Shown here in pieces: positions 5,843 to 44,892 of a stretch of DNA of 56,535 nucleotides; within the stretch, counting starts at the first letter, position 1; the number at the start of each line of letters is the position of its first letter. The notes under the pieces are model-generated. The model was not told where the DNA came from. It searched no databases and was given only the letters and a program-made list of their open reading frames with translations. This DNA comes from Elusimicrobia bacterium HGW-Elusimicrobia-2. GTDB taxonomy: Bacteria; CG03. Position numbers and translations under genes: made by a program. The stretch lies in assembly GCA_002841685.1 (NCBI GenBank), contig PHAM01000002.1, forward strand, positions 1 through 56,535, given 5' to 3'.

Positions 5843-5850
5843 AAAAAATG

Positions 5851-19268: not shown

Positions 19269-20257
19269 AAAAGAAAATAGGGACGGAGGTAATTAAATTG
19301 CCAAGAATTCCAATCTTTAGAATTAAATTGAGGTCGTTCACGGAAACAATTTCTTGGATAATTGGCATTTTTATATTTTTAATTACCTCCGTCCCTATTT
19401 TTGGAGCCGGAGAGACGGCGCTTAATTTTTTGAGGATAGGAACTTCCGCTCGCGGCGCCGCGCTTGCCGATTCTCTCGCCGCTGATTATTCTGATTCTTC
19501 GGCGGTGGAATATAATCCCGCCACTCTTTTGACTCTCGAAGGCCGGGAGATTCAGCTGATGCATATAAACCTTTATGCCGATATAGATTATGAATCGCTT
19601 ATTTATGTTGAGCAGTTTGATAAATTTAATCTTGCGCTTTCACTGAACTATCTTCATACAAACGCTCTCCGCACGGTGATAGATACTTCTGATCCATACG
19701 GTTATAAAAATATTGGTAAATTCGTTTTTCAGGATAGATGTTTTGCCGCTACATTTACCCCCCGAAAAGGGATATGGGGAGGGCGGGTGAAATATATAGA
19801 GGAACGAATAGAGGATGAGAAAGCAGGCACTCCCGCTGCCGATTTCGGATTTTTAGTTCCGGGTAAATTATCTTACGGGGCGGCGCTATGCAATATGGGA
19901 CCCGAAATCAAATTTATAGATGTTAAAGAAAAATTACCTCAGACACTGCAGATGGCTGTGAAGCTTAATTTAAAATACATATCCCTTTATTCGGCAGGGA
20001 ATTTTTATATTGACAGAAAAACTTCAGGTGCTTGCGCTATGGAGGCGAATATTATAAATGTTGTATTTCTGCGGGCGGGATATAAGTATATACCAGAGGA
20101 TAACGGGGAATTCCCCGGATTTACATTCGGTATCGGAATTAAGATAAGGGAAATAGGTTTTGATTATGCGTTTATTCCCTTCGGGGAATTCGGCGATACT
20201 CAAAGATTTTCGCTACAGGTGAAATGGGGAAAAAGAAAAGGGGACGGAGGTAATTAA
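19265..20257 (+). CDS. PorV/PorQ-family outer-membrane protein with repeat-derived signal peptide
   Basis: A 330-residue beta-barrel of the PorV/UPF0164 family (N-terminal FLRIGTSARGAALADSLAA and YNPATL motifs, many short amphipathic strands). Family members act at the outer membrane with CTD-bearing exoproteins. The first about 45 residues are encoded by a RAYT-related element (19274-19401): KLPRIPIFRIK then IIGIFIFLITSVPIFGAG. ATG 19265 overlaps the upstream stop. TTG 19298, with GGAGG eight bases before it and matching the transposase start, is a real alternative. The C-terminus also runs into the next element (KGDGGN, stop inside the left arm), past a likely original aromatic end (LQVKW). 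Confidence 0.85.
   Translation: MKKKIGTEVIKLPRIPIFRIKLRSFTETISWIIGIFIFLITSVPIFGAGETALNFLRIGTSARGAALADSLAADYSDSSAVEYNPATLLTLEGREIQLMHINLYADIDYESLIYVEQFDKFNLALSLNYLHTNALRTVIDTSDPYGYKNIGKFVFQDRCFAATFTPRKGIWGGRVKYIEERIEDEKAGTPAADFGFLVPGKLSYGAALCNMGPEIKFIDVKEKLPQTLQMAVKLNLKYISLYSAGNFYIDRKTSGACAMEANIINVVFLRAGYKYIPEDNGEFPGFTFGIGIKIREIGFDYAFIPFGEFGDTQRFSLQVKWGKRKGDGGN
19274..19401. repeat. RAYT-related inverted-repeat element (128 bp) inside the PorV start
   Basis: Arms AAAATAGGGACGGAGGTAAT (19274-) and the complement ending at 19401 are perfect over 24 bases. The left part matches the transposase start (GCCAAGAATTCCAA), and the right part its 3' end (GGATAATTGG then TTAATTACCTCCGTCCC). It looks like an internal deletion of the 28749-29492 unit. 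It supplies a Shine-Dalgarno GGAGG, a TTG codon and a hydrophobic signal segment. Confidence 0.85.
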
Positions 20258-20386
20258 ATTGCCAAAAATTCCAAGAATTATAGAAAAATGGAAGCATGGG
20301 GTTTTGAAGTGAAGCGTTTATTTTCTTTAAAAAATCATTGGATAATTAGTATTCTTGTATTTTTAATTACCTCCGTCCCTATTTTT
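20236..20386. repeat. RAYT-related inverted-repeat element (about 150 bp)
   Basis: Left arm GGGGACGGAGGTAATTAAA (from 20240) and right arm TTTAATTACCTCCGTCCCT (20362-20380). It overlaps the 3' end of the PorV-like gene, giving its last codons and TAA, and encodes the signal segment WIISILVFLITSVPIFGA of the next gene. Confidence 0.85.
20259..20312 (+). CDS. Possible 17-residue leader peptide from the repeat's own start codon
   Basis: TTG 20259 has GGAGG eight bases upstream and continues PKIPRIIEKWKHGVLK to TGA 20310-20312. That stop overlaps GTG 20309, the best start for the next gene, so translation could pass by re-initiation. It is the decayed equivalent of the transposase start (MPRIPR). 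There is no direct evidence that it is translated. Confidence 0.3.
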   Translation: MPKIPRIIEKWKHGVLK

Positions 20387-23300
20387 GGAGCAGGCTGGTA
20401 TTCTTCGCTGATTTTAAAATCGGGAGAGAATATCACGAGTTGTATATCCGGCTTCTCCGGAGTGAGCGTTATTTACGCCGGAGGCGTCTATGGAAGCATT
20501 TACAAAATAGATACATCTTCGGATTCGCCAGTTATGACATATATAACGGGGCTCGGTTCCGAAATTACTGATATGATTTACGAGGACGGTATTATATACG
20601 CCGTTAATAATAAATTGTGGCAAATTGATGCAGAGAGCGGTTTTTCCGTGGTGATAGCTACCAATAACTGCTCATATCAAGCAATTATTGTCTGCGGAGA
20701 TCAATTTTATCTCTCGGACGAATACGGCGTTTTGCGGGAATATAATTCAAGTACCGGAGAAATGACCGAAATCGGTTCTTCGGCTCTTGGTATGACGGAT
20801 ATAGCATATTATAGCGGCGCTGTATTTGCCGTCAGCAGAGACAAATGCCTGTACAGATTTTATAAGAATGCTGGTCAATGGTTACGGGAAAAAATATATA
20901 ATGCCGGAACAAAACTTTATACAATTACTGTTTCTTCTTTTTCCGGCGAGAGCAGGCTTTATATCGGCGGCGCTGATTCGTATCTAAGGGAAATTTATTA
21001 CAAAAACGGCTGGAAAATATTTCCCGTTGATTACACCTCGGGAGGAGTGAACGGTATAGTGACAGCGGATATTACGGGGAGTGATAATATCTATCTTTAT
21101 ACCGACGGAGGAAGCTGGTGGGAATTCTCAAATTCAACTTCCGGATATGTGAAGAAAAATATACTGAATTACGGAGCAGGAATAAATACGGCTTTGTCGG
21201 CGGGGGCGACCCTTTATTTTTTTACCTCGGATAGTTATATGAGTGCGCTGTATTATTCGTCTGTCGCGCTTTCAGGCAAAGGATACAAGCATCAGCCCTC
21301 GGGCAGTCTTGAAATCGGCGGAGCGCCGTTCCCTTACAGAAATCCTGTTTTCCCGCGGAAGGACGAAAAAACAAGTTTTTATTTCACGGATTCGGCAAAA
21401 TCGCTTTCACTTTCGCCCGTGCTTTACTGGAAGCAGAAGAGCTCTTCGTCCTGGCAGACATCGTCATTTGTCTATAAAGAAACGGGCAGCTCTTATTCCG
21501 TTTATTTTACAAGTTGGACTTTTAATTATTCCACGGGGACTGTTATTGATTATTTTATTGCCGCCGGAGGTTATTATATTTTCCGCTCCGGCGAAGATAA
21601 GCTGTCCAATAACTCAAATTATACTTTCGGCATTTCTTCGGCCGCCGCCGCCGCGAAACCGTTTACTTTTATGGTCGCGGGCTTAGGAAATTGTTTTCAT
21701 TATCCCGAAACATCTTTCGGCAATACGGCTTCAATGAGGGGGCCGCGGAATCCTCTGTCCGGGGATGAAATCACTTTTTTCGTAGGCAATCAGGCGTCAG
21801 GTTCGGGGAATTACGGAAATATGAACGGTGGGCAGTTCCATTATCGCGAAAACGGTGTATGGAAAACTTCGCCCATAAACTGGAGTGAAGATATAGGAGA
21901 TTATAAATACTGGAAAACAGTATTAACGTCGACGGGGATGACATCATATTATTTTTCGGTAACTTATGATGATCATAACACTACCTATGTTTATGGTGAT
22001 GACAGTGTTTCCGTGGCGTGCGGCAGTGAGGATGAGGCAAAGGCTTCTCCTTTTACGCTGAATTTTTCCACTGTCGCGTTTAATATAAACCTAACGCCGG
22101 CGGCCACGACTCCTCAGAATTTGCTGATTTATGAAGCCGGCACGTTTATTAAAGCTTATGAAAGCGCCGTAAGTTCTTTCGCAAGCGTGTCGCTTTACAG
22201 CGGCAATTTTGAACTGATTATAAAAGACGGCAATTATCAGACGATTTATGACACTGTTTCATTTTCTTCGGTTTCAAAAACTTATAACCTTTTATATTCG
22301 TCGACGCCGCATTCATTTACGCTCGATGGAAACTGCGAAGGGAATTTTAGCGCGAACGAACTGATAGGGGTTGATTCGCAAAGTGATTCTTCCTGGGGAG
22401 CAAAAAACGATATTTATAATTTGTGGGCCACATTTGATAAGGATAATTTATATCTGGGGCTCAAGGGAGTGCTTGAAAATAATTCCGTTGTTATTTATCT
22501 TGATTGCGGAGATTACCTTGGATCTATAGACGACGCTTCCGCTCTGCCGTGGGCGCAGTCCCGGAATCATAAATTTCCTGACGGTTTCCGGCCGGATTTT
22601 CAGTTTACGTTTTGGGATTTTACAGGGGGGTTTTTTTACAGAATAACTTCCTCAACGACTCTGGATGATGTTACATCGCAGGTTTCTCAGGCGGTTAAAG
22701 GAGGCGGCAGCGGCGAGACGGGTTCCCTTGAAATTAAAATACCTTTTTCTGTAATATACAACGGAATAACGGCATTCGGAATACCCGCCGGCGCGAAATT
22801 AGGCGTTGCCGCCGCTGTGTGCGGAGGAGACGGCACTTCGGCTAAAGACATTATTCCCGATCAGTCCGCGCCTTGCGGCGATACCTTTGACGAATTTTCT
22901 TTTGATAAATGGTTTGTTCTGCCGCTTGATGAAGATATCGACGGCGTTCCTGATACAGGCAGGTATATTGCAGATATAGCGTATTCAACATCCTCCGCGG
23001 CGGCTTCACAGATGGCCGTATCTTCGGGAGAGATAAGCTATAGTAATTTCAACGCGCCGGAATATTTTTACAAAGAGCGTGATATGCCTCTGTCGGTTTA
23101 CAGCGTTGATGCCGACAGCGCCGTTTTGAAATGGAAAAATGCCGCCGAAAGCGTTTATGCTACTTTATATCCGGCGCTTAATGCGTCAACGTTTACATTC
23201 GCGGTGTCTGCGGATTATGTGTTCGGCAGTATTGATTATTATTTTGTCCTCTATAAGGGAACGGAGTCTCTGAATACCGGTGTTTACAACATAGATGTTA

Positions 23301-23968
23301 TGCCTGAAATTGTTTTAACCCCGGGAAGCAGAGAATATTCAACCGGTAAATCTAAAATTATTTTTAAGGAGCCGCTTGAAGACAGCGCAAAACTATTTTT
23401 CCTTGAGCCGGAATCATTAATTACGGATAATATTCTTCCTATTAATCCCGAAATCAATATTTCTACGGATGGTATGCGCTTGCCCGCGGAACTTTATGAA
23501 ATAGAAGGGAATATTCCGCCCGCGTCACTGACTTTGTCTTACTTTGATGATGCGGATGAAGATAAATACGCCGTTTATTTTTATGACGGAAGTAATTGGA
23601 TTTACAAAAACTCGTCGCGTGATATATCCGCCAATACTGTAACTTTTAGCGTAAATCAACACGGGAAAGCCGGTATATTTAAAATAACATCAGCGTCTCT
23701 CGTTTCGGGGAAAAATATTTCGTCCATCAGCAAACCTGTTTTTAATCCCGGTCTCGGAGAGAAGATAGAATTCAATTTCATTCAAACCCCTGCGGTAATT
23801 AAAATTGAGATATTTGATATGAACGGGAGAAAAATAAAGGAGTTGTCGGGGGAATCAAGTTGGGACGGCAGGGATCGGAACAATAACACTGTTCCGGCAG
23901 GAGCATATCTTTATCATCTGGAAACAGATTCCGATGATTTTTGGGGCACCTTAGGCGTATGGAAATAA
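20309..23968 (+). CDS. Large secreted beta-propeller-like protein with DOMON-like and FlgD/Ig C-terminal domains
   Basis: About 1219 residues from GTG 20309 (GGGG seven bases upstream, clean n-region KRLF). ATG 20288 gives 1226 residues but has no ribosome-binding site. The signal peptide ends SVPIFGA and is encoded by the repeat. Residues to about 330 look like a propeller (VIYAGGVYGSIYKID, LYIGGADSYLREIYY). A DOMON/glucodextranase-like domain lies about 670-880 (FTLDGNCEGNF, NDIYNLWATFDKDNLYLGL). The last about 75 residues are a FlgD-Ig tail (FNPGLGEKIEF, IKIEIFDMNGRKIKEL, SWDGRDRNNNTVPAGAYLY). It is probably an exoprotein handled with the adjacent PorV-like genes. Confidence 0.82.
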   Translation: MKRLFSLKNHWIISILVFLITSVPIFGAGWYSSLILKSGENITSCISGFSGVSVIYAGGVYGSIYKIDTSSDSPVMTYITGLGSEITDMIYEDGIIYAVNNKLWQIDAESGFSVVIATNNCSYQAIIVCGDQFYLSDEYGVLREYNSSTGEMTEIGSSALGMTDIAYYSGAVFAVSRDKCLYRFYKNAGQWLREKIYNAGTKLYTITVSSFSGESRLYIGGADSYLREIYYKNGWKIFPVDYTSGGVNGIVTADITGSDNIYLYTDGGSWWEFSNSTSGYVKKNILNYGAGINTALSAGATLYFFTSDSYMSALYYSSVALSGKGYKHQPSGSLEIGGAPFPYRNPVFPRKDEKTSFYFTDSAKSLSLSPVLYWKQKSSSSWQTSSFVYKETGSSYSVYFTSWTFNYSTGTVIDYFIAAGGYYIFRSGEDKLSNNSNYTFGISSAAAAAKPFTFMVAGLGNCFHYPETSFGNTASMRGPRNPLSGDEITFFVGNQASGSGNYGNMNGGQFHYRENGVWKTSPINWSEDIGDYKYWKTVLTSTGMTSYYFSVTYDDHNTTYVYGDDSVSVACGSEDEAKASPFTLNFSTVAFNINLTPAATTPQNLLIYEAGTFIKAYESAVSSFASVSLYSGNFELIIKDGNYQTIYDTVSFSSVSKTYNLLYSSTPHSFTLDGNCEGNFSANELIGVDSQSDSSWGAKNDIYNLWATFDKDNLYLGLKGVLENNSVVIYLDCGDYLGSIDDASALPWAQSRNHKFPDGFRPDFQFTFWDFTGGFFYRITSSTTLDDVTSQVSQAVKGGGSGETGSLEIKIPFSVIYNGITAFGIPAGAKLGVAAAVCGGDGTSAKDIIPDQSAPCGDTFDEFSFDKWFVLPLDEDIDGVPDTGRYIADIAYSTSSAAASQMAVSSGEISYSNFNAPEYFYKERDMPLSVYSVDADSAVLKWKNAAESVYATLYPALNASTFTFAVSADYVFGSIDYYFVLYKGTESLNTGVYNIDVMPEIVLTPGSREYSTGKSKIIFKEPLEDSAKLFFLEPESLITDNILPINPEINISTDGMRLPAELYEIEGNIPPASLTLSYFDDADEDKYAVYFYDGSNWIYKNSSRDISANTVTFSVNQHGKAGIFKITSASLVSGKNISSISKPVFNPGLGEKIEFNFIQTPAVIKIEIFDMNGRKIKELSGESSWDGRDRNNNTVPAGAYLYHLETDSDDFWGTLGVWK

Positions 23969-25332
23969 ACAAAAAAATGGGGACGGAGGTAATTAATTTG
24001 CCAAGAATTCTAATTTTTAGAATTAAATCAAGGCTGTTTGCGGGAGCAATTCCTTGGATAATTGGTTTTTTTATATTTTTAATTACCTCCGTCCCCATTT
24101 TTGCATATTATAGTTTTGTGGATTTGAAGACAAAAAGTTTGGCCGGGTCACTTGTCTCCTCCGCCTATTCCAATCCCGCTTTGATATGCGGAGAGAAGTC
24201 GCCGTCGCTGTATGCGGAATACAGCGATTTATTTTACGGTTTAAATAAACTTGATAATCCTGTCCAGGGATATTATCCTCCCGATGCGGATAAGATGGTG
24301 CTCGCGGCGATTTTTCCGTATAAAAACTATGGTATGGGAGTGAGCCGTAATTTATTGACCACGCCCATACACAAAGAATCAAAAACTTCTTTTCTGCTGG
24401 CAAGGAATCTCAATGACTTGATAATTAGAAGATTTGAGGAAAGTATAGATGTCGCCGCTTCGTTTAACATCTGCTCTTTAGAGTTTTCTCATTTCCCGTA
24501 TGAAAATTATTCCAACTCCGCCACAACATTTTCCTGGGATTTTTTTATCAGTGCCAAATTCACCGACGGTTTTGAATATGGAATGGCTTTTAAAAACCTC
24601 GGCAATACGGATATAGGTTTTAAGGAAAAAGAGCCTTTGCCCCGCGAATTTAATTTTTCGCTGGCTAAAAAAATTTCAAATATCAAACTGATTTTTTCTT
24701 ATATGGATTGTCAGCAAATACCGGATTACGGGTTTGCGGCCGAATATAATATAAAAGGATTGAATATCATGACGGGAATAAATTCAAACTATTTTTCCGC
24801 GGCCGCTCAGTTCCTTCTAAAAGAGCGCATAGAATTTTCATTTGGGGTTTCCGTGCCTTTTGTCGGAGACATAGCTTTTCAGCCCGATATAGCGGTTAAA
24901 TATTATTTCAGTACAGCCGTCGCGCAGGTTGATAAATTAGGTGAAATGAAAATTTATTATAACAGGGCTTATGAAGCCTATGTCGATAAGCGTTTTGAAG
25001 AAGCGATCCAAAATTGGGAACAAGTGCTTAAACTGAATCCGGAGCATATTCTCGCCAAGAAAAATATTGTTAAAGCCCGGGCAGATTCAAAGAAATATTA
25101 TTTTAATTTAGCCACTTACGAATATAAAATGGGCAATTACGAAAAAGCCATAGATTTTTGGCAGAAAGTTCTTGCTATAGATCCTTCTCATGATTTATCA
25201 AAGCAGAAGATAGAGAAGGCGAGAAAGCGCCTTGAATCCGGAGAGAAACTTTTACCGGCGGTTCCGCGGGATTATGAAAAATTAAAGGAAGAGGGCGGCG
25301 ATAAAGCTCCGCGCGTTGAAAATGAGCGTTAA
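23959..25332 (+). CDS. PorV/PorQ-like outer-membrane protein with C-terminal TPR repeats
   Basis: 457 residues from ATG 23959, which overlaps the upstream stop; ATG 23977 and TTG 23998 are in-frame alternatives, the last with GGAGG at eight bases. The first about 45 residues come from the repeat element (INLPRILIFRIK ... FIFLITSVPIFAYY). The middle is a PorV-like barrel (SLAGSLVSSAYSNPAL, MVLAAIFPYKNYGMGVS, EYGMAFKNLGNTDIGF). Residues about 335-435 hold two TPR motifs (AYEAYVDKRFEEAIQNWEQV and ATYEYKMGNYEKAIDFWQKV). A TPR on a barrel suggests a periplasmic protein contact. This is the second PorV-type gene of the array. Confidence 0.82.
   Translation: MEINKKMGTEVINLPRILIFRIKSRLFAGAIPWIIGFFIFLITSVPIFAYYSFVDLKTKSLAGSLVSSAYSNPALICGEKSPSLYAEYSDLFYGLNKLDNPVQGYYPPDADKMVLAAIFPYKNYGMGVSRNLLTTPIHKESKTSFLLARNLNDLIIRRFEESIDVAASFNICSLEFSHFPYENYSNSATTFSWDFFISAKFTDGFEYGMAFKNLGNTDIGFKEKEPLPREFNFSLAKKISNIKLIFSYMDCQQIPDYGFAAEYNIKGLNIMTGINSNYFSAAAQFLLKERIEFSFGVSVPFVGDIAFQPDIAVKYYFSTAVAQVDKLGEMKIYYNRAYEAYVDKRFEEAIQNWEQVLKLNPEHILAKKNIVKARADSKKYYFNLATYEYKMGNYEKAIDFWQKVLAIDPSHDLSKQKIEKARKRLESGEKLLPAVPRDYEKLKEEGGDKAPRVENER
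23973..24102. repeat. RAYT-related inverted-repeat element (130 bp)
   Basis: Arms AAAAATGGGGACGGAGGTAA and its complement TTACCTCCGTCCCCATTTTT, 24 bp in all with TTAA at the inner ends. The left half keeps GGAGG, TTG and CCAAGAATTC. The right half encodes WIIGFFIFLITSVPIFA of the TPR-barrel protein. Confidence 0.85.
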
Positions 25333-26362
25333 TGTAAAAAAAACAATTGATGTTAAGTTGTTGAGCATATATAGATTTTTACTGATTGCTTTCTATTTTT
25401 CATTTTTTATGGCGAGCGCACTTCTTTGCGCGCCGTATCACAGGATTGATATAGACGGGAATCTTGATGAATGGCCGGAGGGGGAAAAGATTGCGAATGA
25501 TATTCACGACGGAGAAGTCATGAATAGAATAGACGCTCTTTACGTCACATGGGATGCGGACAATCTTTACATAGGGGTTAACTATAAACTTGATGACTGC
25601 GGCATGCTGCTTTATCTGGATACTGATTACGGCTTGTCATCCGGCTTTGATGACCTGACAAAAATAGACACATGGAACAAAGGCGCGAAGTTTTCGGCGG
25701 GCGGCTTTCTTCCCGATTTTATGTACGGTTCATGGGACGGTGACGGCGGCAGTTTTTATCAGATTACGAGTTCCCTATCAGCGTCGGGCGTTTCCGCAAA
25801 CTGTAAGACGGATTTCAGTTCGTATGCTCCGGGCACCGAAATATCCATAGGATGGGATACCCTTTTTCCTTCTGGTTTTCCGGCGGGAACAAAAATCGCC
25901 ATGTTTTGCAGTCTGGCCGACGGAACTGCTCTTGCTCTTGACTGCGCGCCGGATAATATTGCGGTTGTGCTTCCTTTAGTGGATACCTGCACGGTGATAA
26001 ACTGTGATTCAAACAGCGATGGTGTGCCGGATAGTTTAAGTTCTTCTAATTTTGAAATTTCCTATGTGCGAATGGCTAAAATATTCTCACCCAATGCGGA
26101 CGGCATAAACGATGATTTGAATATAACTGTCGCACTCACGCAGAGTGCGGATATATATATGAAAGCTTTCAATATTGAAGGAAAAAAAGTGTGGCAAAGC
26201 GCCGGACATTCAGCTGAAGCGGGGGAAACGACGATGACGTGGAACGGCAGGGATTTTTCGGGGGCGATGATTAGAAACGGTGTTTATATTCTGAATATCA
26301 GGGCGGTGAATTCATCGGGTGAAGAAGTGTATAAAAACAAGCCGGTGGCGATAGTCAAATAA
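25322..26362 (+). CDS. Secreted DOMON-like protein with FlgD/Ig C-terminal domain
   Basis: 346 residues. ATG 25322 overlaps the upstream stop, and the earlier TTG 25316 is less likely. The signal peptide ends near MASALLCA. A DOMON/CBM9-like domain (about 40-225) begins YHRIDIDGNLDEWPEG, with ALYVTWDADNLYIGVNY and LLYLDTDYG. It is of the same type as in the propeller protein and both giant proteins. The tail (about 255-346) starts IFSPNADGINDDLNI and contains MTWNGRDFSGAMIRNGVYILNI, a CTD pattern typical of gliding/secretion-associated exoproteins. It may be a carbohydrate-binding surface protein. Confidence 0.82.
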   Translation: MSVNVKKTIDVKLLSIYRFLLIAFYFSFFMASALLCAPYHRIDIDGNLDEWPEGEKIANDIHDGEVMNRIDALYVTWDADNLYIGVNYKLDDCGMLLYLDTDYGLSSGFDDLTKIDTWNKGAKFSAGGFLPDFMYGSWDGDGGSFYQITSSLSASGVSANCKTDFSSYAPGTEISIGWDTLFPSGFPAGTKIAMFCSLADGTALALDCAPDNIAVVLPLVDTCTVINCDSNSDGVPDSLSSSNFEISYVRMAKIFSPNADGINDDLNITVALTQSADIYMKAFNIEGKKVWQSAGHSAEAGETTMTWNGRDFSGAMIRNGVYILNIRAVNSSGEEVYKNKPVAIVK

Positions 26363-26363
26363 A

Positions 26364-27230
26364 ATGATAAAAAGATTTGAAATTAAAAATAAGGGAGTGA
26401 AGAAATACTTAATGTCCGTGGCGCGGTTTGATGCGCTGTCTGTTTTAATTATTATTTTCGCGTTTTTAATTTCCTTTCCGGCAGCAGCCTCTTTTGAAAT
26501 GTGCCCCGTCTCCGCGGAGCTGCTGGGGAGGGGCGGCTGGTCGGTCGCCGATGACCGTTTGTCCAGTCTTGATAATTCTGCGGTTACGAGCGAAGTTTTT
26601 AACTGGGAAGCCGGCAGGGCCAATTATTACGGAATAAGCGAACTTAACGGAGGATTTTTGTCATTGCAGATACCGTCCAAAGCGAACAGTTTTAATTTTA
26701 TATACTCCACATTGAAATTTTCTTCAGTTTATCAGGAGAGTGTTTATTCGTTTGCTCTGGCGAAAAATCTGACAAAAAATCTGAACGCGGGCCTGCGTCT
26801 CAACACATACCGGATTGACATCGCGGAATTTGAAGACGGTATTAACACCCGCACAATGTATTCGAATTACGATTTCGCGATTCTGCGCGAAGGGCAATAT
26901 TTTAATTTCGGAGTCTCTTTCAAGCAGCTTTCTTCAAAAGATGTGACGCTGAAAAGCATACCGGAGCGAAATTCTCAGGAAATTTGCTACGGGATTATGG
27001 TTAAACCTGTTAAGGGAGCGAATCTGGGTTTGGATTACGAATTCGGTGAACCGCTGAAGGCCGGGGTTGAAGTTGAGGTGGCGGATGCGCTTAAATGCGA
27101 GATTGGAATAAGAAAAAATATGTTTACGCTCGGATTTTCGCTGAGGATGCCGGGGTTTAGGCTTAATTTTTCAACACTTCTGCACACTGAAATGGGCGAA
27201 ACTTATTTTATATCCATAAGCGGAAAATGA
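26364..27230 (+). CDS. PorV/PorQ-like outer-membrane protein
   Basis: 288 residues. The signal anchor is at about 20-42 (ALSVLIIIFAFLISFPAAAS), followed by a PorV-type opening (FEMCPVSAELLGRGGWSVADD) and alternating-strand sequence (SFALAKNLTKNLNAGLRLN, YFNFGVSFKQL, FTLGFSLRMPGFRLNFS). It starts one base after the previous stop, and its TGA overlaps the next ATG. GTG 26397 and ATG 26412 are alternative starts that would shorten the n-region. It is the third PorV-like gene in the array. Its signal peptide is not repeat-derived. Confidence 0.72.
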   Translation: MIKRFEIKNKGVKKYLMSVARFDALSVLIIIFAFLISFPAAASFEMCPVSAELLGRGGWSVADDRLSSLDNSAVTSEVFNWEAGRANYYGISELNGGFLSLQIPSKANSFNFIYSTLKFSSVYQESVYSFALAKNLTKNLNAGLRLNTYRIDIAEFEDGINTRTMYSNYDFAILREGQYFNFGVSFKQLSSKDVTLKSIPERNSQEICYGIMVKPVKGANLGLDYEFGEPLKAGVEVEVADALKCEIGIRKNMFTLGFSLRMPGFRLNFSTLLHTEMGETYFISISGK

Positions 27231-28738: not shown

Positions 28739-28748
28739 AAAATGGTAG

Positions 28749-29492
28749 AAAATGGGGACGGAGGTAATTTAAATGCCAAGAATTCCAAGATTTACAATTA
28801 ATGATGGGTTTTATCATGTACTATGCAGAGGGCATAATAAGCGGGAAATATTTCATGAGGATAGTGATTTCTTAAAATATTTGAAAACGCTGAGAGAAGC
28901 GAAGACTGTATATAGTTTGAAGATTTATCATTTTTCACTAATTCCCAATCATGTGCATTTGATAATAAATGCTCAAAAAGGTGAAGATTTAACAAAGGCG
29001 ATGAGGTTTTTAAATCAGAATTATGCTCAATATTACAGAGCTAAATATGGCGGTTGCGGATATGTTTGGCAGGACCGATTCAAAAGTTTTTTAATACAAA
29101 GTGGAATCTACCTGATACGGTGCGGTATTTACATAGAGCTGAATTCCGTTATGGCCGGACTTGCGAATAATCCCGAGGATTATAGGTGGTCAAGCTGCGG
29201 CGTTTATGTTAGCGGAAAGAAAAGTAATTTAATTGATATTGATCCGGAATACGCGGCAATTTCGGAAAATAAGGATGAACGAAGAAGAGTGTATTCGGAA
29301 TATTTAAGGGACGGATTAAAAGAAAAAAGGTCTTTGCAAAGATATTTCAGGGACGGCGTTTATGGAGACGAGGGTTTTGTTGAAAAACTAAAAAAGAGCG
29401 GCTTACAGCAAAGAACCTGGCATAAAGGTAGACCTAAAAATGATTAGAAAACTTGGAATAATTGGAAAATTAATTACCTCCGTCCCCTTTTT
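28749..29492 (+). mobile_element. Complete RAYT unit (transposase gene plus terminal inverted repeats)
   Basis: About 744 bp. It is bounded by AATGGGGACGGAGGTAATTT on the left and TTAATTACCTCCGTCCCC on the right and encodes a Y1-type transposase. It is the likely parent of the short elements in this window, which keep its two ends and lose the middle. It sits inside the operon-like array and its right end begins the next coding sequence. Confidence 0.85.
28773..29447 (+). CDS. REP-associated tyrosine transposase (Y1/HUH, RAYT-like)
   Basis: A 224-residue single-strand transposase of the IS200-like Y1 superfamily. The HUH metal motif is HVH at 60-62 (IPNHVHLII). The probable catalytic tyrosine is Y120 in CGIYIELNSVMAG. 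Other family landmarks are GFYHVLCRG, FLNQNYAQYYRAKYG and GYVWQDRF. Length is normal. ATG 28773 has GGAGG eight bases upstream, inside the left repeat arm, so repeat and gene share the start signal. Its stop overlaps by eight bases the ATG of the next, unrelated CBM48-barrel gene. RAYTs are thought to spread REP sequences, and here the linked repeats are present in several copies. It appears intact. Confidence 0.92.
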   Translation: MPRIPRFTINDGFYHVLCRGHNKREIFHEDSDFLKYLKTLREAKTVYSLKIYHFSLIPNHVHLIINAQKGEDLTKAMRFLNQNYAQYYRAKYGGCGYVWQDRFKSFLIQSGIYLIRCGIYIELNSVMAGLANNPEDYRWSSCGVYVSGKKSNLIDIDPEYAAISENKDERRRVYSEYLRDGLKEKRSLQRYFRDGVYGDEGFVEKLKKSGLQQRTWHKGRPKND

Positions 29493-31164
29493 TCTTTGTG
29501 CTGCGTTCGGAGAGGAGTATGAATTAAAGTATTATGCGCCGAAAGCGGAAAAAGTTAATATAGCGGGAGATTTTAACGGCTGGAACCCCGACGAATTTAC
29601 TATGGATAAAACTGAGGGGGGCTATTTTCGCAAAACGCTTGAACTTGAGCCGGGGATTCACGAATACAAAGTGATAATTGACGGCGAGTGGCTGAACGGA
29701 GCAAATCTCAAATACGATACAGCGCTGCGGCAGACAATAATAACTTCAAATTTTGCGTGGTCGCCGAAAATATTCTGGAGCGGAAAATTTCTTGTGAACG
29801 TTTCCTCCTCATCCGCTGAAAGCTGCCATTCGCTTCAAGGTAAAATAACACTCAACAACAATGTTTCGGGGATGTTCATTATAAATTCTTCCGGGCGGGA
29901 TGACCGATTAAATTCTAAGGTGGAAAAGCTCTCCATGGTTTACAGAGCAGGGCTTTTTGATTTGAACTCTTTTTATAATCTGCGTGTTTTTCAGTCACCT
30001 GATCCCATGAGGCTGCTTCAAAGACAGTCACCTGCGCCTCTGCGGCAGCAGGAGATTGTTTTTTGCGATGAGACCAATCCCGCCGAAGACTTCGGCCTCG
30101 GTATGCAGGGGATCCTTATGGGATTCGGGGGCGAGGGCATTACGAGCGCGAACTTATTAATCAGCGATGATTATGAGACCGAAGAAGATACTCTTTTCGC
30201 TTCGGCCGGCATAGGCGGCATACGCGCGGAATATCTTTTGAAAAAAGGGATTGATTTTCCTTTCGCATCGTCCAGCCACTGGTTTCCTGATCCCGATGTT
30301 GCGCAGACATGGTTTGGAAGTTCCAACGCTCTTGATTGGTACAAGGGCTTTAACGAAGAAAGCGAATTATCTCTTGACGCGCAGGCTGAGCAGGGGCGGG
30401 CTGTTTATTTCGGACAGTGTGTTCTGATAAATAAAATGCTGCATGCAGTCCGCTGGAATGAAGGAGGCCTCGGAGATTCGGGCATTGATAAGAAGTGGCG
30501 TTTCTATGAAGCTAAAAAATATACGGCCGGCGTGAAATACAAAGGCCCTGTTTCCGCACAGTGCTCATACGCGTCGGAAAACGGAAAATTCTCGGAGTTC
30601 TGGAATTTTAATACGAAGAGCGAAAAATATTCTTTTCTCGCGAGGTGGAATTTTGCTGACTCGTATATAGGCGCTAAAACAGCGATAATAAAAAACCATA
30701 TTCCCGCAGGCTATAATGTGCATGATGATTTTGATCCGTACAGCATAAATTATTACTACGGAAAAACAGGAAGGTACGAAAGCTGGAAAGAATACTGGCT
30801 CCTGGGTAACTTCAAGGGGCGCAATTATAATCTAAAATTAGCCGCTAAATTTTTCCCGGCCGAAAAAATAAAAGAAGCTGTGATAACGGCCGAAAAGAGC
30901 ATCTCGCTTTTTTCATTTAAATTTTCACCCATGTATTTTTCAGACGGTGTGAAAAATTATTTATGCAGCTCATTTTCGGTAGGCGTTAAGAAAGGCGCTT
31001 TAAGTGTTGAAGCGGGAGCGGGAATGTCGCCGGAAGATTTTTCTTTGACTGATGAGAGTGATAGAAGGGAGGATTTTTTGTATAATCAGAACAGTTGGGA
31101 TAAGGGCTATGAACTTCTTAGAGAACAGGAGAAAATATGGTTAAGAGCTGTTTTAAGTTTCTGA
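29440..31164 (+). CDS. Outer-membrane barrel with N-terminal CBM48 domain
   Basis: 574 residues. The signal peptide, MIRKLGIIGKLITSVPFFLC and following AA, is encoded by the right end of the RAYT unit, and the ATG overlaps the transposase stop. Residues about 26-100 are a CBM48/E-set glycogen-binding domain (VNIAGDFNGWN, GIHEYKVIIDGEW). The rest is beta-barrel-like (LFASAGIGGIRAEYLL, YNLKLAAKFF) and ends LRAVLSF with a terminal aromatic. A glucan-binding module fused to a barrel suggests an outer-membrane glucan-capture or import protein, the closest thing here to a SusC/SusD function. That role is inferred. No TonB-plug domain is visible. Confidence 0.8.
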   Translation: MIRKLGIIGKLITSVPFFLCAAFGEEYELKYYAPKAEKVNIAGDFNGWNPDEFTMDKTEGGYFRKTLELEPGIHEYKVIIDGEWLNGANLKYDTALRQTIITSNFAWSPKIFWSGKFLVNVSSSSAESCHSLQGKITLNNNVSGMFIINSSGRDDRLNSKVEKLSMVYRAGLFDLNSFYNLRVFQSPDPMRLLQRQSPAPLRQQEIVFCDETNPAEDFGLGMQGILMGFGGEGITSANLLISDDYETEEDTLFASAGIGGIRAEYLLKKGIDFPFASSSHWFPDPDVAQTWFGSSNALDWYKGFNEESELSLDAQAEQGRAVYFGQCVLINKMLHAVRWNEGGLGDSGIDKKWRFYEAKKYTAGVKYKGPVSAQCSYASENGKFSEFWNFNTKSEKYSFLARWNFADSYIGAKTAIIKNHIPAGYNVHDDFDPYSINYYYGKTGRYESWKEYWLLGNFKGRNYNLKLAAKFFPAEKIKEAVITAEKSISLFSFKFSPMYFSDGVKNYLCSSFSVGVKKGALSVEAGAGMSPEDFSLTDESDRREDFLYNQNSWDKGYELLREQEKIWLRAVLSF

Positions 31165-31514
31165 CGGTAATTCTGCTTTTTTCATCATGCGCTTTGAGGT
31201 GGGTGAAAGAAAGAATCCCGCCTCCATCGCAGCGTGCGGACGGCAAAGTGCTTTTTCTCCTGGACGCGCCGTCCGCGAAAAGCGTTTTTGCCGCCGGAGA
31301 ATTCAACGGCTGGGAGTACCAGCCGTCGGGACAGCGCTCCATAGCGCTTAAAAAAAATAAAAACGACGTGTGGGAAGCCGCCGCGATTATTCCTTCTGGA
31401 AGGTACACTTATAAATATGTGCTTGATTCCTACACGTGGATTCTTGACCCGCACAACCCGCTTACCGTCGATGACGGCACGGGTAATGTTAATTCGCTTT
31501 TAATTGTGAAATAA
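31137..31514 (+). CDS. CBM48 lipoprotein (single domain)
   Basis: 125 residues. The signal peptide ends in lipobox LFSS-C18, so it should be a lipid-anchored envelope protein. Residues about 35-125 are one CBM48 domain (VFAAGEFNGWEY, GRYTYKYVLDSYTW, DDGTGNVNSLLI). It has no catalytic part, so it is probably a glycogen/starch-binding surface or periplasmic protein. AGGAG lies six bases before the ATG. It overlaps the upstream barrel gene by 28 bases, so the two products are probably made together. Confidence 0.88.
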   Translation: MVKSCFKFLTVILLFSSCALRWVKERIPPPSQRADGKVLFLLDAPSAKSVFAAGEFNGWEYQPSGQRSIALKKNKNDVWEAAAIIPSGRYTYKYVLDSYTWILDPHNPLTVDDGTGNVNSLLIVK

Positions 31515-31583
31515 ATAATGTATAATGCGCTTGAGTTTTCAATGTTTTGTTTTTGTCCTTTGTTTAAAAATTAGGGAGGAATA

Positions 31584-32588
31584 ATGAAATCTAAATTATC
31601 GTTTGTCTGCTCGTTTCTTTTGTTTACCGCCTGCGCTCCTCTTCCGAAAGAGACTGTTTCATCTTTACCCGGCCAGGGTGGGGCGGGGCCTGTTACAGGG
31701 AAGAACGGCACAATTTTCAGTTATACAGGGGTAGCTGATAAGGTAGTTATCGCGGGCAGTTTTAATGATTGGTCACAGGAGGCAAATCCTCTGCGCAAAT
31801 TGGGAGAAGACAGGTGGGAGACGACTTTGAAACTGCCCTCTGGTGCGCATCAGTACAAATTTGTGGTGGACGGAAACTGGATAACCGATTCTGCCAATTC
31901 CAATACGGCGGACGACGGCGTTGGCGGCGTAAACTCCGTTGTTACTGTCAGCGGGGCAGCTACCGGTAAAGCGGCTGGAGTGGTGTCCGCCGCAGGGGCA
32001 CCTAAACAGGTTAAAGGCGGAGTTCTTTTTACCTGCGCCGCCCCAACCGCGAATAAAGTTGTCCTCGCGGGCAGTTTCAATAATTGGTCTCAGGACGCTA
32101 ATCCTATGAGCAAGAATGCGGCGGGAGTATGGTCGGCGATTGTGCCTCTGGCAACGGGTGCGCATCAATACAAATTTGTGGTGGACGGAAACTGGATAAC
32201 CGATTCTGCCAATTCCAATACGGCGGACGACGGCGTCGGCGGCGTAAACTCCGTTGTTACTGTCAGCGGGGCAGCTACTACTGGTAAAGCGGCGGGAGTG
32301 GTGTCCGCCGCAGGGGCACCAAAGCAGGTTAAAGGCGGGATTCTTTTTGCCTGCGCCGCCCCAACCGCGAATAAAGTTGTCCTCGCGGGCAGTTTCAATA
32401 ATTGGTCTCAGGACGCTAATCCCATGAGCAAGAATGCGGCGGGAGTATGGTCGGCGATTGTGCCTTTGAGCTCCGGATCGCATCAATACAAGTTTGTGAC
32501 TGACGGAAACTGGATAATTGATCCGTCCAATTCCAATACGGCCGCGGACGGGCTCGGCGGAAATAATTCTGTTATAACTTTGCCATGA
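31584..32588 (+). CDS. Triple-CBM48 lipoprotein
   Basis: 334 residues. The signal peptide ends in lipobox LFTA-C17. Three tandem CBM48 domains follow a short linker (about 46-130, 140-235, 245-334), each with VV(I/L)AGSFN.WSQ.ANP, HQYKFV.DGNW and a DG.GG.NSV ending. Domains 2 and 3 are almost identical at the DNA level (periods 315 and 318 bases), a recent duplication. The linkers are Ala/Gly/Val-rich (GKAAGVVSAAGAPKQVKGG). Multivalent binding to alpha-glucan at the cell surface is the obvious role, like SusE/SusF in Bacteroides. GGGAGG precedes the ATG. Confidence 0.9.
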   Translation: MKSKLSFVCSFLLFTACAPLPKETVSSLPGQGGAGPVTGKNGTIFSYTGVADKVVIAGSFNDWSQEANPLRKLGEDRWETTLKLPSGAHQYKFVVDGNWITDSANSNTADDGVGGVNSVVTVSGAATGKAAGVVSAAGAPKQVKGGVLFTCAAPTANKVVLAGSFNNWSQDANPMSKNAAGVWSAIVPLATGAHQYKFVVDGNWITDSANSNTADDGVGGVNSVVTVSGAATTGKAAGVVSAAGAPKQVKGGILFACAAPTANKVVLAGSFNNWSQDANPMSKNAAGVWSAIVPLSSGSHQYKFVTDGNWIIDPSNSNTAADGLGGNNSVITLP

Positions 32589-32633
32589 CAGCTCAGAAAT
32601 TAAAACGGCAAAAGAGTAAAGGGAGGCTTAATT

Positions 32634-33752
32634 GTGGCTGAAGTAATCTTAAAAAATATCGCGAAGATTTACAAGGGTGATGTCGTCGGATGCAAGGATA
32701 TCAATCTGCATATAAAAGACAGAGAATTCTGCGTTTTGGTAGGGCCTTCCGGATGCGGAAAATCCACGACCCTGAGGCTGATAGCCGGTCTTGAGGATAT
32801 CACGGAGGGAGAATTGCGGATAGGCGACAGAATAGTTAATGATATTCCTCCGAAAGAAAGAGATATAGCGATGGTGTTTCAGAACTACGCCCTTTACCCG
32901 CATATGAAAGTGTGGGATAACCTCGCTTTCGGGCTGAAACTCCGAAAATATCCAGCGGATGAGATAAAAAAAAGGGTTACTGAAGCGGCGCGGATTCTGG
33001 AAATAGAGCATTTACTTGAACGTCGGCCTAAGGCGTTGAGCGGCGGGCAGAGGCAGCGTGTGGCGCTGGGCCGCGCGATAGTCAGGAAGCCGAAAGTTTT
33101 TCTTTTTGACGAGCCGCTTTCAAATCTTGACGCCAAACTCAGGGTGCAGATGCGCGTTGAAATAAAAAAACTGCACGCGAAACTTCAGATAACCTCAATT
33201 TATGTCACGCATGATCAGATTGAGGCTATGACAATGGGCGACAGAATTGTCGTGATGAAAGACGGTTTCATTCAGCAGGTTGACGACCCGATGAAACTTT
33301 ACGAACGGCCCGTGTCAAAATTTGTCGCGGGCTTCATAGGCTCTCCCCCGATAAATTTAATTAAAGTGAAAATTTCCCGTGACGGCGAAAAGTTTTTAAT
33401 AAGTGAGGCGGCCGGCGGATTTAAGCTGAAATACAGCCGCAAAGGATTTGATTTTCTCGCGGCGTTTTCCGGAAAAAATTTAATTATGGGCGTTCGTCCG
33501 GAGAACATAATAGACAGGATTTACGCGGGTGTAAAGGAAGCGGAAAATACCGTGCCTGTCGTCGTGGAAGCGGAAGAGCCCATGGGAAGTGAAAATTATA
33601 TTCATCTGAAAACGGTGGGCGGCTCCGAAATTGTGATGAAAACAGAAGGTTCAAACAGGGTAAAACCCGGGGATCGCCTTGAATTGATTTTCAACGCGGA
33701 AAAGATGCATTTTTTTCACCCCGATACAGAGAAGAGAATAAATGAAAATTAA
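32634..33752 (+). CDS. ABC sugar importer ATPase, MalK/UgpC/MsmX type
   Basis: 372 residues from GTG 32634 (GGGAGG upstream). It powers uptake of oligosaccharides. Walker A is GPSGCGKST (37-45), the signature is LSGGQRQRVALGRA, and Walker B is VFLFDEPLSNLD, with the switch histidine in YVTHDQIEAMTMGD. The C-terminal about 130 residues form the MOI/TOBE regulatory domain (MGVRPENI, EPMGSENYIHLK). The length is normal. It is followed with overlaps by two permeases and a binding protein, so the importer is complete. MalK-type ATPases often serve several importers, and the neighbours point to maltodextrins. Confidence 0.95.
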   Translation: MAEVILKNIAKIYKGDVVGCKDINLHIKDREFCVLVGPSGCGKSTTLRLIAGLEDITEGELRIGDRIVNDIPPKERDIAMVFQNYALYPHMKVWDNLAFGLKLRKYPADEIKKRVTEAARILEIEHLLERRPKALSGGQRQRVALGRAIVRKPKVFLFDEPLSNLDAKLRVQMRVEIKKLHAKLQITSIYVTHDQIEAMTMGDRIVVMKDGFIQQVDDPMKLYERPVSKFVAGFIGSPPINLIKVKISRDGEKFLISEAAGGFKLKYSRKGFDFLAAFSGKNLIMGVRPENIIDRIYAGVKEAENTVPVVVEAEEPMGSENYIHLKTVGGSEIVMKTEGSNRVKPGDRLELIFNAEKMHFFHPDTEKRINEN

Positions 33753-34671
33753 CGGCAAAAACATTCATAATAACATAACGGCGTATTTGTTTCTTGCGCC
33801 TTTTCTCATAGTTTTCTCCTTATTTCTCGCCTATCCGGTAATATATTCACTGGTGCTGAGCCTGCATAAGGTGAGCTGGACAACCAATCTGTATAATATT
33901 TTTTCAGACATGAAATTTGTGGGCTTTGATAATTATATAAAGCTTTTTCATGATTCGCGTTTCTGGTGGTCGCTGATTGTGACGGGTTATTACGCCGTGT
34001 TGACGATTCCGCTCACGGTGTTTCTGGGCTTGATCCTGGCGATACTGCTTAATAATAAACTTCCGGGAGTTTCTCTTTTCAGAAGCGCTTATTTTCTACC
34101 CAGCGTTCTGGATATTCTGGTTGTGGGCATTATCTGGACGCTTATATACAGCCCGCATTTCGGCATTCTTCCGAAAATACTGGATTCTCTCGGATTCAGC
34201 GCTTTTATGGATAAGGGTATTCTGGCAAATCCGCGGACAGCTTTACCCGGTGTGGCGATTGCGATGGTTTTAAGGGGCGCGGGTTTCGGCATGATACTTT
34301 TTCTTTCCGCCATACAGAATATTCCGGTTTCGGTTTACGAGGCGGCGGAGATTGACGGAGCCAACGCATGGCAGAAACTTATCTATATAACGATTCCGCT
34401 GGTTAAGCCCATAATACTTTTTCTTGTTATTATGGGAACAATAGGTTCGCTGAACGCTTTTACGGAAATATATTCAATGACTCAGGGCGGTCCCTATGTT
34501 GTTGAATTTATGGGGGGAATTCAGGGCGCCACCAGAGTTTCGGGCTATTATCTGTTTGAAAAATGGGAAACGATGGAATACGGTTACGCCGCCGCTGTGA
34601 GTTATGTACTGCTCTTCATAACGTTGGGAATTTCACTTGTTAACGCGAAAATGATGAGGAAGAAAAACTAA
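33742..34671 (+). CDS. ABC sugar importer permease, MalF-like
   Basis: 309 residues with six predicted membrane helices, starting after a short cytoplasmic tail (NNITAYLFLAPFLIVFSLFL). The EAA loop that docks on the ATPase reads YEAAEIDGANAWQKLIYITI. It overlaps the ATPase gene by 11 bases, and its stop shares a base with the next ATG (TAATG). It is the short MalF form without the large periplasmic loop, as in most non-enteric sugar importers. Confidence 0.94.
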   Translation: MKINGKNIHNNITAYLFLAPFLIVFSLFLAYPVIYSLVLSLHKVSWTTNLYNIFSDMKFVGFDNYIKLFHDSRFWWSLIVTGYYAVLTIPLTVFLGLILAILLNNKLPGVSLFRSAYFLPSVLDILVVGIIWTLIYSPHFGILPKILDSLGFSAFMDKGILANPRTALPGVAIAMVLRGAGFGMILFLSAIQNIPVSVYEAAEIDGANAWQKLIYITIPLVKPIILFLVIMGTIGSLNAFTEIYSMTQGGPYVVEFMGGIQGATRVSGYYLFEKWETMEYGYAAAVSYVLLFITLGISLVNAKMMRKKN

Positions 34672-35510
34672 TGGATGTAGAAAAAATAAGGGAAAGTTTG
34701 AAGAAAACTCTGCTGATGCTGGCTTTGATATTAGGCGCGCTGGTGATGCTGTTTCCTTTTTTCTGGATGCTTTTTGTCGCCGTCAAAGCGGAAGGGCATG
34801 GATTTAAGCTGGATTTTGTTTTTGCCCAGCCGCTGTTTAAGAATTTTGCGGCGGTGTGGAATAACGAGTCCTTTCCTTTTTCAAAGTTTTTTATGAATTC
34901 CCTCATTGTGGCAACGTCGGGGGCTTTTATGACGGCTCTTTTCTGCTCAATGGGGGCGTATGTTTTCGCAAAAAAGAAATTTATTTTTAAAGAAACACTT
35001 TTCTGGATACTCCTTTCCACTCTTATGATTCCAGGGATGATGTACATGGTGCCGCAGTTTGCCATAGTCACAAAACTCGGCTGGATCAACACCTACAAGG
35101 GTATGATTATACCGCATGTGGCGAATATATTCGGGCTTTTCCTGTTAAGGCAGCACATGGAAACGATTCCAGACGCTCTGATATCTTCGGCGGAGATTGA
35201 CGGCGCGAGCGAATGGCAGATTTTCAAAAATATCATGGTGCCGCTGTCCATGCCGGTCATAACGACGGTTTTTCTTTTGACCTTTCTTTTCCAATGGACA
35301 AATTTTCTCTGGCAGCTTGTGGTGAATACCCCCGACAGCATTAAGCTGACGCTGCCTGTCGGGCTGGCTCTTTTTAGAGGACAGTATGCCACTCAATGGA
35401 CATTGCTTATGGCGGCTTCGGCGTTTTCCATAATACCGATTGCCGTGCTTTTCCTCGGTCTCCAAAAATTTTTTATAGAAGGCCTGACAGCGGGAGCGGT
35501 GAAGGAATGA
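34671..35510 (+). CDS. ABC sugar importer permease, MalG-like
   Basis: 279 residues with six membrane helices. EAA loop: ISSAEIDGASEWQIFKNIMV. The start and stop overlap both neighbours (TAATG and ATGA). It pairs with the MalF-like gene to form the translocation channel. Length and order are typical. Confidence 0.94.
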   Translation: MDVEKIRESLKKTLLMLALILGALVMLFPFFWMLFVAVKAEGHGFKLDFVFAQPLFKNFAAVWNNESFPFSKFFMNSLIVATSGAFMTALFCSMGAYVFAKKKFIFKETLFWILLSTLMIPGMMYMVPQFAIVTKLGWINTYKGMIIPHVANIFGLFLLRQHMETIPDALISSAEIDGASEWQIFKNIMVPLSMPVITTVFLLTFLFQWTNFLWQLVVNTPDSIKLTLPVGLALFRGQYATQWTLLMAASAFSIIPIAVLFLGLQKFFIEGLTAGAVKE

Positions 35511-36772
35511 AAAATCAAAAATTAAAATTATTTGTTTTTTTTATCGCCGCTATCGCCGCAATAAATTCCTGCGGAAGGCCCGGCGCGGAGGGAAAGGATA
35601 TAAAGAAAGTTGTTCTCTGGGAAACATACAACAATGAAGAGCACAAAGAGCTTGAAAGTATTGCAAGGGAATTTGAAAAAAACAATCCGGGAACACAGAT
35701 AAGCGTTCAGAGAGTTCCGTGGGGCGGTCATGAGTCCAAGCTTATGACGTCAATGATAACGAATACGGCGCCGGATATAGCCCGTGTGGATGTCGCTTTT
35801 CTGCCGCGCCTGGTGATATCCGGTTCTGTTTTGGAACTGACGCAGTATGGGGAAATAAATACGGAAGATTATGTGAAGGCAGCGATAAACTCAAATGTGT
35901 GGATAGAAAACGGCGTTAAAAAAATTTACGGTTTGCCCGATCAGACAACAGGCGCCGCGCTTTTTTACAACAAAAAAATGTTCAGGGCAAGCGGTATCAA
36001 ATCCCCGCCTGAAACATGGGACGAGTTCCTCGTAGCGGCGAAACTGCTGACGAAAGATAAAAACGGCGACGGACGTCCCGATCAGTTCGGCTTTGCCATG
36101 GATAAGGAACTGTGGTGGACATTTCCGTTTTTTAACACATACGGAGTGAAGTTTCTAACGGATGACGGAAAAAGATGCATCCTTAATTCGGAAGCCGGCG
36201 TTAGGGCTCTGCAGTTTAAGGTGGACCTTTATCAAAAATATAAGGTTGAGGCTGGCGCCTGGCAGAGCGGCGCGATCGCGCCTGATACGGGCTTTATTAA
36301 CGAAATGTACGCGATGATTTTAACAGGGCCCTGGAATATAAAGAGATTTCGGGACGCGGGACTGGATTTCGGAATTGCCCTTATTCCGCGCGGTCCGGCC
36401 GGCACTTCAACAAATGTCGGAGGCTCTAATATGGTTGTTCTTAAAAAAGCCCGCCATCCCGAACTTTGTTTTAAATTTCTGAAATATCTGACCTCTGACC
36501 GGGTTCAGGCAAGGTGGGCTTCTGATCTGACTCAGATTCCGGTTAACATTAACAGCGCAAAATACATAGATTTTTCAAAGCAGCCGGACATAGAAATTTT
36601 TTTTGAACAGATGAAAACGGCAGTTGCCCGTCCTAAAGTTGTTTCTTATGCGGCTCTTGCGAATACGGTGAATCCTTATTTATATGCAGCGCTTGCGGGC
36701 AAGAAAACAGTCAAAGAGGCTCTTGATACAATTGCTGAAAAAATAGATGAAGAAGTCCTTGTTGAAAAATAA
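35507..36772 (+). CDS. ABC sugar importer solute-binding lipoprotein, MalE-like
   Basis: 421 residues from ATG 35507 (overlapping the permease stop; an in-frame ATG at 35396 lies inside the permease gene and is rejected). The lipobox is INS-C22. It is a family 1 extracellular sugar-binding protein: VVLWETYNNEEHKELESIA, NTAPDIARVDVAFLPRL, LPDQTTGAALFYNKKMF, MILTGPWNIKRFRDAG, GGSNMVVLKKA. It delivers the sugar, probably a maltooligosaccharide, to the two permeases. The stop is three bases before the next repeat element. Confidence 0.94.
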   Translation: MKNQKLKLFVFFIAAIAAINSCGRPGAEGKDIKKVVLWETYNNEEHKELESIAREFEKNNPGTQISVQRVPWGGHESKLMTSMITNTAPDIARVDVAFLPRLVISGSVLELTQYGEINTEDYVKAAINSNVWIENGVKKIYGLPDQTTGAALFYNKKMFRASGIKSPPETWDEFLVAAKLLTKDKNGDGRPDQFGFAMDKELWWTFPFFNTYGVKFLTDDGKRCILNSEAGVRALQFKVDLYQKYKVEAGAWQSGAIAPDTGFINEMYAMILTGPWNIKRFRDAGLDFGIALIPRGPAGTSTNVGGSNMVVLKKARHPELCFKFLKYLTSDRVQARWASDLTQIPVNINSAKYIDFSKQPDIEIFFEQMKTAVARPKVVSYAALANTVNPYLYAALAGKKTVKEALDTIAEKIDEEVLVEK

Positions 36773-36908
36773 TAGGGACGGAGGTAATTTAATTGCTAAT
36801 AATTCCAAGATTTCAAGAAAACAAGTTATTTAATTTATGCCATTTTTAAAAGTAATTTTTAGAATAATTGGATTTGTTGTAATATTAATTACCTCCGTCC
36901 CTATTTTT
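36771..36908. repeat. RAYT-related inverted-repeat element (138 bp)
   Basis: Left arm AATAGGGACGGAGGTAATTT (36771-36790), right arm ATTAATTACCTCCGTCCCTATTTTT trimmed to the same core (ends 36908). The left part has TTGCTAATAATTCCAAGA, the transposase-start relic. The right part encodes FVVILITSVPIFA, the signal peptide of the second amylase. Confidence 0.85.
36793..36849 (+). CDS. Possible 18-residue leader peptide from the repeat's start codon
   Basis: TTG 36793 follows GGAGG and reads 18 codons to TAA 36847-36849, overlapping ATG 36837 of the amylase in another frame. It would couple translation of the amylase to the repeat's ribosome-binding site. ATG 36837 itself has none. Inferred only from layout. 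Confidence 0.25.
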   Translation: MLIIPRFQENKLFNLCHF

Positions 36909-44796: not shown

Positions 44797-44892
44797 TGAA
44801 CAACAATTTGATTTTTAAGAATATTTTTTTGTTTTTGAAAGTGGTAAGTAAACAGCGCGCTTCATACAGCGCGGACAATGGTTGCGGAAAAA

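Follow-up and report, generated by a model that had tools for sequence, protein, structure and literature searches.

The terminal inverted repeats (TIRs) of a Y1/RAYT-type element, and short derivatives of it in which only the ends are left, have very probably been captured as Sec signal peptides by exported genes in the genome of Elusimicrobia bacterium HGW-Elusimicrobia-2. This reading is supported by the anatomy of the element, the frame in which it is read, its position, the replacement of other signal peptides seen when orthologues are compared, and its independent recurrence. A preliminary description had proposed that an arm of a RAYT-related element supplies the signal peptide of at least five exported proteins encoded in the window, i.e. 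the whole analysed stretch of 56,535 nucleotides. Frame, position and orthologue evidence bear this out, and genome-wide the number of such proteins is six.

Anatomy of the element and its captured copies

A 24 bp inverted repeat, CAAAAATGGGGACGGAGGTAATTAA ... TTAATTACCTCCGTCCCYATTTTTG, brackets a complete Y1/RAYT-like transposase gene as well as four short elements in the window (Table 1). When up to one mismatch is allowed, the window contains 13 copies of ACCTCCGTCC; 2.3 would be expected, and 100 shuffles gave six at most. Copies elsewhere in the genome (an uncultured lineage; 1.78 Mb, 94 contigs) were located by pattern search and their regions then fetched; 12 of the 13 copies of the extended motif AATTACCTCCGTCCC lie inside the window. 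Foldings revealed that the motif copies are the arms of inverted repeats, with a palindrome of about 24 bp per side. It reaches through CCYATTTTTG, so that the whole LITSVPIF stretch falls inside the arm. The left arm carries a perfect Shine-Dalgarno (SD) sequence, GGAGGT, 7 bases 5' of an ATG in the transposase gene or of a TTG in the short elements.

The translated transposase contains the HUH motif NPNHVHLI and matches PF01797 with 46.5 bits (cut-off 23). NCBIfam NF047646 (RAYT) is still its best-scoring family, with 63.4 bits, which is below the cut-off of 80. The spacers of the four short elements, about 80–110 nt long, align with the ends of the transposase unit. The shared left end measures about 50 nt when counted from the arm, start region included, and the shared right end about 40 nt. 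Judging from these alignments, the short elements look like internal-deletion derivatives that kept only the two ends. Two solitary arms were also found. The right one is probably the decayed end of a lost transposase unit, and at 44718–44993 it forms a 34-aa signal-peptide-like ORF beside a MerR-like gene. Repeats on the minus strand at 16430–16843, with translations of the VIPNEVRNL / CHSERSEES type, are taken here to be a different, widespread bacterial repeat.

Table 1. Element copies and the genes associated with them in the window.
Feature	Position	Strand	Description
Lone left arm, right arm lost	5844–5867 (arm at 5852)	+	Downstream gene (6009) has its own signal peptide
PorV-like gene (FadL-type barrel)	19265–20257	+	Weak Toluene_X match; putative signal peptide = E1
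Short element E1	19273–19402	+	Left arm 19273–19296, SD GGAGGT, TTG 19298; right arm 19379–19402 = LITSVPIF, putative signal peptide of PorV-like protein
Short element E2	20234–20386	+	Left arm 20234–20257; upstream ORF TTG 20259, 17 codons; right arm 20363–20386 = LITSVPIF
Propeller-type exported protein, 1226 aa	20288–23968	+	Weak CHU_C match at C-terminus; putative signal peptide from E2
TPR-barrel gene	23959–25332	+	Putative signal peptide from E3; mature start YYSF as in element-free G006 orthologue
Short element E3	23973–24102	+	Left arm 23973–23996, in-frame TTG 23998; right arm 24079–24102 = LITSVPIF
Complete transposase unit	28748–29493	+	Left TIR 28748–28771, transposase, right TIR 29470–29493
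Y1 (IS200-like) transposase, RAYT/TIRYT type	28773–29447	+	PF01797 match; SD in left TIR, 7 bases before ATG
CBM48-barrel gene	29440–31164	+	ATG overlaps transposase gene end; putative signal peptide MIRKLGIIGKLITSVPFFLCAAFG from right TIR
Short element E5	36768–36908	+	Left arm 36768–36791; upstream ORF TTG 36793, 18 codons; right arm 36885–36908 = LITSVPIF
Alpha-amylase with CBM48	36837–39155	+	Putative signal peptide from E5
Orphan right arm	44923–44946 (arm at 44929)	+	Reads MIVKIGIVGKLITSVPVFLCCLEASALMRALEDK followed by a stop

At 19382, 20366, 24082, 29473 and 36888 the LITSVP frame runs through the right arm, TTAATTACCTCCGTCCC, each time with a long stop-free frame downstream, confirming the single frame that had been noted for LITSVP(I/F)F across five genes. 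In all five the mature domain begins a few codons after the arm, and no plausible start codon was found between the two. The sixth captured gene, on contig C61 outside the window, encodes a 1044-aa protein predicted to be exported. All six captures share the frame and lie near the N-terminus, at gene 5' ends as had been anticipated. A basic n-region, a hydrophobic h-region and small residues before the cleavage point were recognised by inspection and hydrophobicity, and these features, the position and the orthologues together suggest that the arm-bearing proteins are exported.

Some details of the preliminary description had to be adjusted. The propeller ORF opens with ATG at 20288 instead of 20309, and the TPR-barrel gene has candidate starts at 23941, 23959 and 23998. 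The right end of the complete transposase unit was correctly named as the source at 29440, where the arm ends the Y1_Tnp gene at 28773–29447. The mature proteins, called unrelated, are nearly so; the CBM48-barrel and the second amylase clearly share CBM48, and are the only such pair. The term start-and-export cassette is literally true only of the PorV-like and TPR-barrel genes, where the SD and TTG of the element are in frame with the signal peptide, whereas in the propeller and amylase genes the TTG opens an upstream ORF of 17–18 codons. The left arm of E2 doubles as the source of the stop codon of the PorV-like gene.

These arrangements are consistent with the following route. One frame of the right TIR encodes a short hydrophobic stretch, LI(T/S)SVP(I/F)(F/I). 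In an element that lies in this frame at the beginning of an exported gene, or slightly within it, this stretch and the adjacent hydrophobic codons would provide a Sec signal peptide with its h-region and a large part of its c-region. The captured stretch would oust the old signal peptide and leave the mature protein and the cleavage position unchanged. Translation could begin inside the element, at a codon that follows the SD of the left TIR, or at a start codon provided by the spacer. For genes behind a complete unit, an ATG that overlaps the transposase gene's end would serve. Almost any hydrophobic sequence is tolerated in signal peptides, and insertions there would therefore survive whereas those elsewhere would be purged.

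Replacement of signal peptides and recurrence in other genomes

The operon is syntenic in related genomes. Within the genus, the elements of the PorV, propeller, TPR-barrel and amylase genes occupy the same sites with diverged spacers, and the amylase element is also present in genomes G001, G002 and G004, the last of which belongs to another genus. As a qualification of the mobile cassette first proposed, most copies in the window were inherited at the same sites across the genus and are not freshly mobile.

In genomes G005 and G006 neither the element nor a Y1 transposase was found. The available orthologues from these genomes have other signal peptides, and their mature sequence starts at the corresponding point. 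In the TPR-barrel, LITSVPIFA precedes YYSFVDLK, whereas LLISSGFVWG precedes YYSFTDVK in the G006 orthologue; in the PorV-like protein, ..IFG is followed by AGETALNF, and ..LHA by AGETAVNF in G006. Arm-free orthologues of the amylase and the CBM48-barrel likewise combine another signal peptide with a matching mature start. This argues that the element took the place of the earlier signal as far as the cleavage region. LITSVPIF without the arms was found in no orthologue. Both results agree with what the preliminary description had predicted of orthologues.

The arm of the C61 gene is present in the analysed genome only, and the signal peptide differs in each of the orthologues from G002, G003 and G005. 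At the CBM48-barrel site G002 contains neither the transposase unit nor the arm; the operon neighbours in G002 are mostly 92–99% identical to those of the analysed genome. Because close relatives lack the arm, these two captures look like gains in the analysed genome itself. Two element-free orthologues (loci L133 on G006:C50 and L130 on G005:C11) have signal peptides made of low-complexity repeats, e.g. STIHCPLSTVHCPLSTVHCPL (repeats of TCCACTGTCCACTG) and repeats of TTTTTCATTTTTCA. Repeats may be a general source of signal peptides in this family.

A 17-mer of the arm was found in several phyla. In Xanthomonadales and Fermentibacteria it forms a compact REP-like palindrome, and the copies examined are intergenic or not convincingly coding. 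The Xanthomonadales matches were left out of the coding count, since at their high GC content every frame contains long open stretches. In G016 (UBA4817) and G017 (CG1_02_37_114), two 'Elusimicrobia' genomes that are distant from the analysed one, some 30 loci were inspected. Most are intergenic, a further qualification of the mobile export signal first proposed, and at least eight genes have an arm in the LITSVP frame at the signal peptide or just behind it. Independent captures were identified in G003, G004, G016 and G017.

A systematic scan assigned 16 distinct genes to the LITSVP frame, two or three to the alternative open frame and three to the remaining frame, and the preferred frame expected from the window genes was thereby recovered. 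Assuming an even split between the two open frames, a hand calculation gives a P of approximately 0.001–0.002 for at least 16 of 18–19. The three third-frame cases probably lie upstream of the real starts.

Donation of N-termini is seen with other transposases as well. Several complete transposase units with TIRs of different sequence are each followed by a gene whose start coincides with, or overlaps, the end of the transposase gene, and the right end of the unit provides the signal peptide or first membrane segment of that gene. Several different transposases provide both start codon and N-terminus of the following gene. In four of these units the right arm is present in tandem, with spacings of 45, 27, 30 and 24 nt, each divisible by three. 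A hand count puts exported or membrane genes at about 18 of 25 behind transposases, a modest enrichment over a background of 44% that is itself envelope-rich, and the argument does not lean on it. Another RAYT-like unit (L350, L351 and L352, in G002, on contig C27 of the analysed genome and in G003) has an arm reading MSRPDPI, with which the product of a cytosolic nucleotidyltransferase-like gene begins; donation of N-termini thus extends beyond exported proteins. At L363 (G016:C53) and L384 (G018:C9), two transposase families with different arms stand directly before an apparently orthologous exported gene, and each shapes its N-terminus (..STNYVDIFISDL and ..STNYADIFIENL).

Pairing of the arms and alternative explanations

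In all 14 folded elements the SD is paired with signal-peptide codons, at six of six positions in 13 of them and at five of six in the G004 element. Minimum free energies are -41 to -57 kcal/mol (z -4.8 to -7.9). Furthermore, the arms are nearly invariant, whereas four-fold sites of the same genes are 34–49% identical between the compared species. Changes on both sides of a base pair were found at five pairs, with nine such cells, a level reached by none of 500 shuffles. The near-invariance and the two-sided changes indicate that it is the nucleotide sequence of the arms that is kept, through pairing or through homogenisation among repeats of the family, and this constraint coexists with the coding role. 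Such conservation exceeds the need of a signal peptide and counts against the capture reading. The double changes in G003 were dropped as clean proof of selection on pairing, since the same genomes contain a TTTCC arm variant. Its TTTCCTCC arms form a separate, mostly intergenic palindrome family with most copies in G001, which may have donated the G003 changes. In G001, at L337–L346, a sister repeat GGGACGGAGGAAAGTC..GACTTTCCTCCGTCCC is flanked by A and T tracts, and these sister TTTCCTCC repeats look like intergenic bidirectional terminators.

From the pairing of the SD, the strength of the folding, the invariance of the arms and the two-sided changes it could be argued that the hairpin is the selected part, closing the SD in the mRNA and tuning translation or mRNA stability between operon genes, with signal-peptide coding as a tolerated by-product. 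We regard this as possible but on the unlikely side. It leaves the frame preference and the restriction to exported genes unexplained, homogenisation or templated mutation would also keep palindromes, and the TTTCC family can mimic compensatory change in G003. Somewhat less likely is a combined reading, in which the element is a dual-code mobile device whose signal-peptide codons also pair with the gene's own SD, so that one inserted hairpin would give both an export signal and a translational switch. If this were true, the switch of an envelope gene would be opened by ribosomes arriving from the upstream gene.

An insertion bias without functional meaning is about as unlikely as the dual-code device: the transposase would prefer T-rich targets, and codons of the h-region are T-rich. 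This is in line with the T-run after nearly every right arm, a stretch of eight T close to the corresponding position of the arm-free G002 site, and the presence of two different transposase families ahead of one and the same exported gene in G016 and G018. However, the A/T flanks largely belong to the inverted repeat itself, T-rich intergenic copies without fusion are common, and a bias of this kind would not choose the frame. Seven of the eight loci with the extended arm in the analysed genome lie in one 57-kb contig, so local recombination may have spread arms in addition to transposition. That recombination or gene conversion between neighbouring operon genes, instead of transposition, accounts for the shared N-termini is a less probable explanation still. 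The spacer at the PorV site, which resembles E1/E3 in the analysed genome and E2 in G002 and G003, would agree with it. The elements nevertheless carry both transposase ends, two gains, that of the transposase unit and that on the separate contig C61, are confined to a single genome, and captures in other genera are independent.

For many REPs at the N-termini of ORFs, it has been suggested that the true start may be located downstream of the repeat (PMC3733652), which is why the comparison with orthologues matters here. Mis-called starts, with ordinary intergenic REP/TIR repeats and translation beginning 3' of the arm, probably do explain cases in the other two frames such as L331, L337 and L344. 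For the captures as a whole we consider this highly improbable, as in the window genes only a few codons, none of them a usable start, separate the arm from the conserved mature domain, and the orthologues all have a signal peptide at that place. Capture of the TIRs as signal peptides remains the preferred reading.

Relation to known elements and significance

RAYT genes with long flanking TIRs, termed TIRtrons or TIRYT, and repeats of their TIRs have already been described (PMC3733652). The element resembles these in its Y1 transposase, in GGGGA-type TIRs that lie near the gene ends or overlap them, and in TIR-only short repeats within the same genome. Donation of signal peptides or N-termini was not reported in that work, and the TIR motif here, GGGGACGG, differs at one position from GGGGWSAS, a motif that some TIRtrons have in common. 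REPINs, which are mobilised by RAYTs, consist of an inverted pair of short repeats with a spacer (PMC3116915), and the present element is likewise such a pair linked to a RAYT. In REPINs, however, which lie outside genes, every single REP contains a palindromic core, whereas here one arm pairs with the other and the right arm encodes protein. The pattern of two self-palindromic, extragenic REPs was not found.

Rickettsia palindromic elements are in-frame palindromes with a preferred open frame in genes of unrelated proteins (PMC10969869). As an in-frame palindromic insert in coding genes the present element works like one of these, but they occur within metabolic and other proteins, whereas the captures described here are N-terminal, resemble export signals and are accompanied by a matching transposase. 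In a survey of Enterobacterales, signal peptides were gained and lost as whole N-terminal segments between orthologues, as here; transposable elements were sought near the N-termini as a source and none was found (PMC5952966), whereas a donor element is identified in the present case. In the open-licence literature we found no report of repeated capture as signal peptides, or of signal peptides derived from transposons or REPs. We therefore rate the class of TIR-flanked RAYT elements and in-frame palindromes as known, and the recurrent role as a source of signal peptides as new.

How signal peptides are gained or exchanged is an open question, and capture of this element points to one route of acquisition in bacteria. 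Because donor, recipient and element-free orthologues are all visible, and several events are independent, the origin of signal peptides becomes directly testable. RAYT-type elements, usually seen as extragenic, would thereby gain a recurrent coding role. The captures would also suggest a simple rule, in which mobile DNA with an end that is hydrophobic in one frame survives on export signals.
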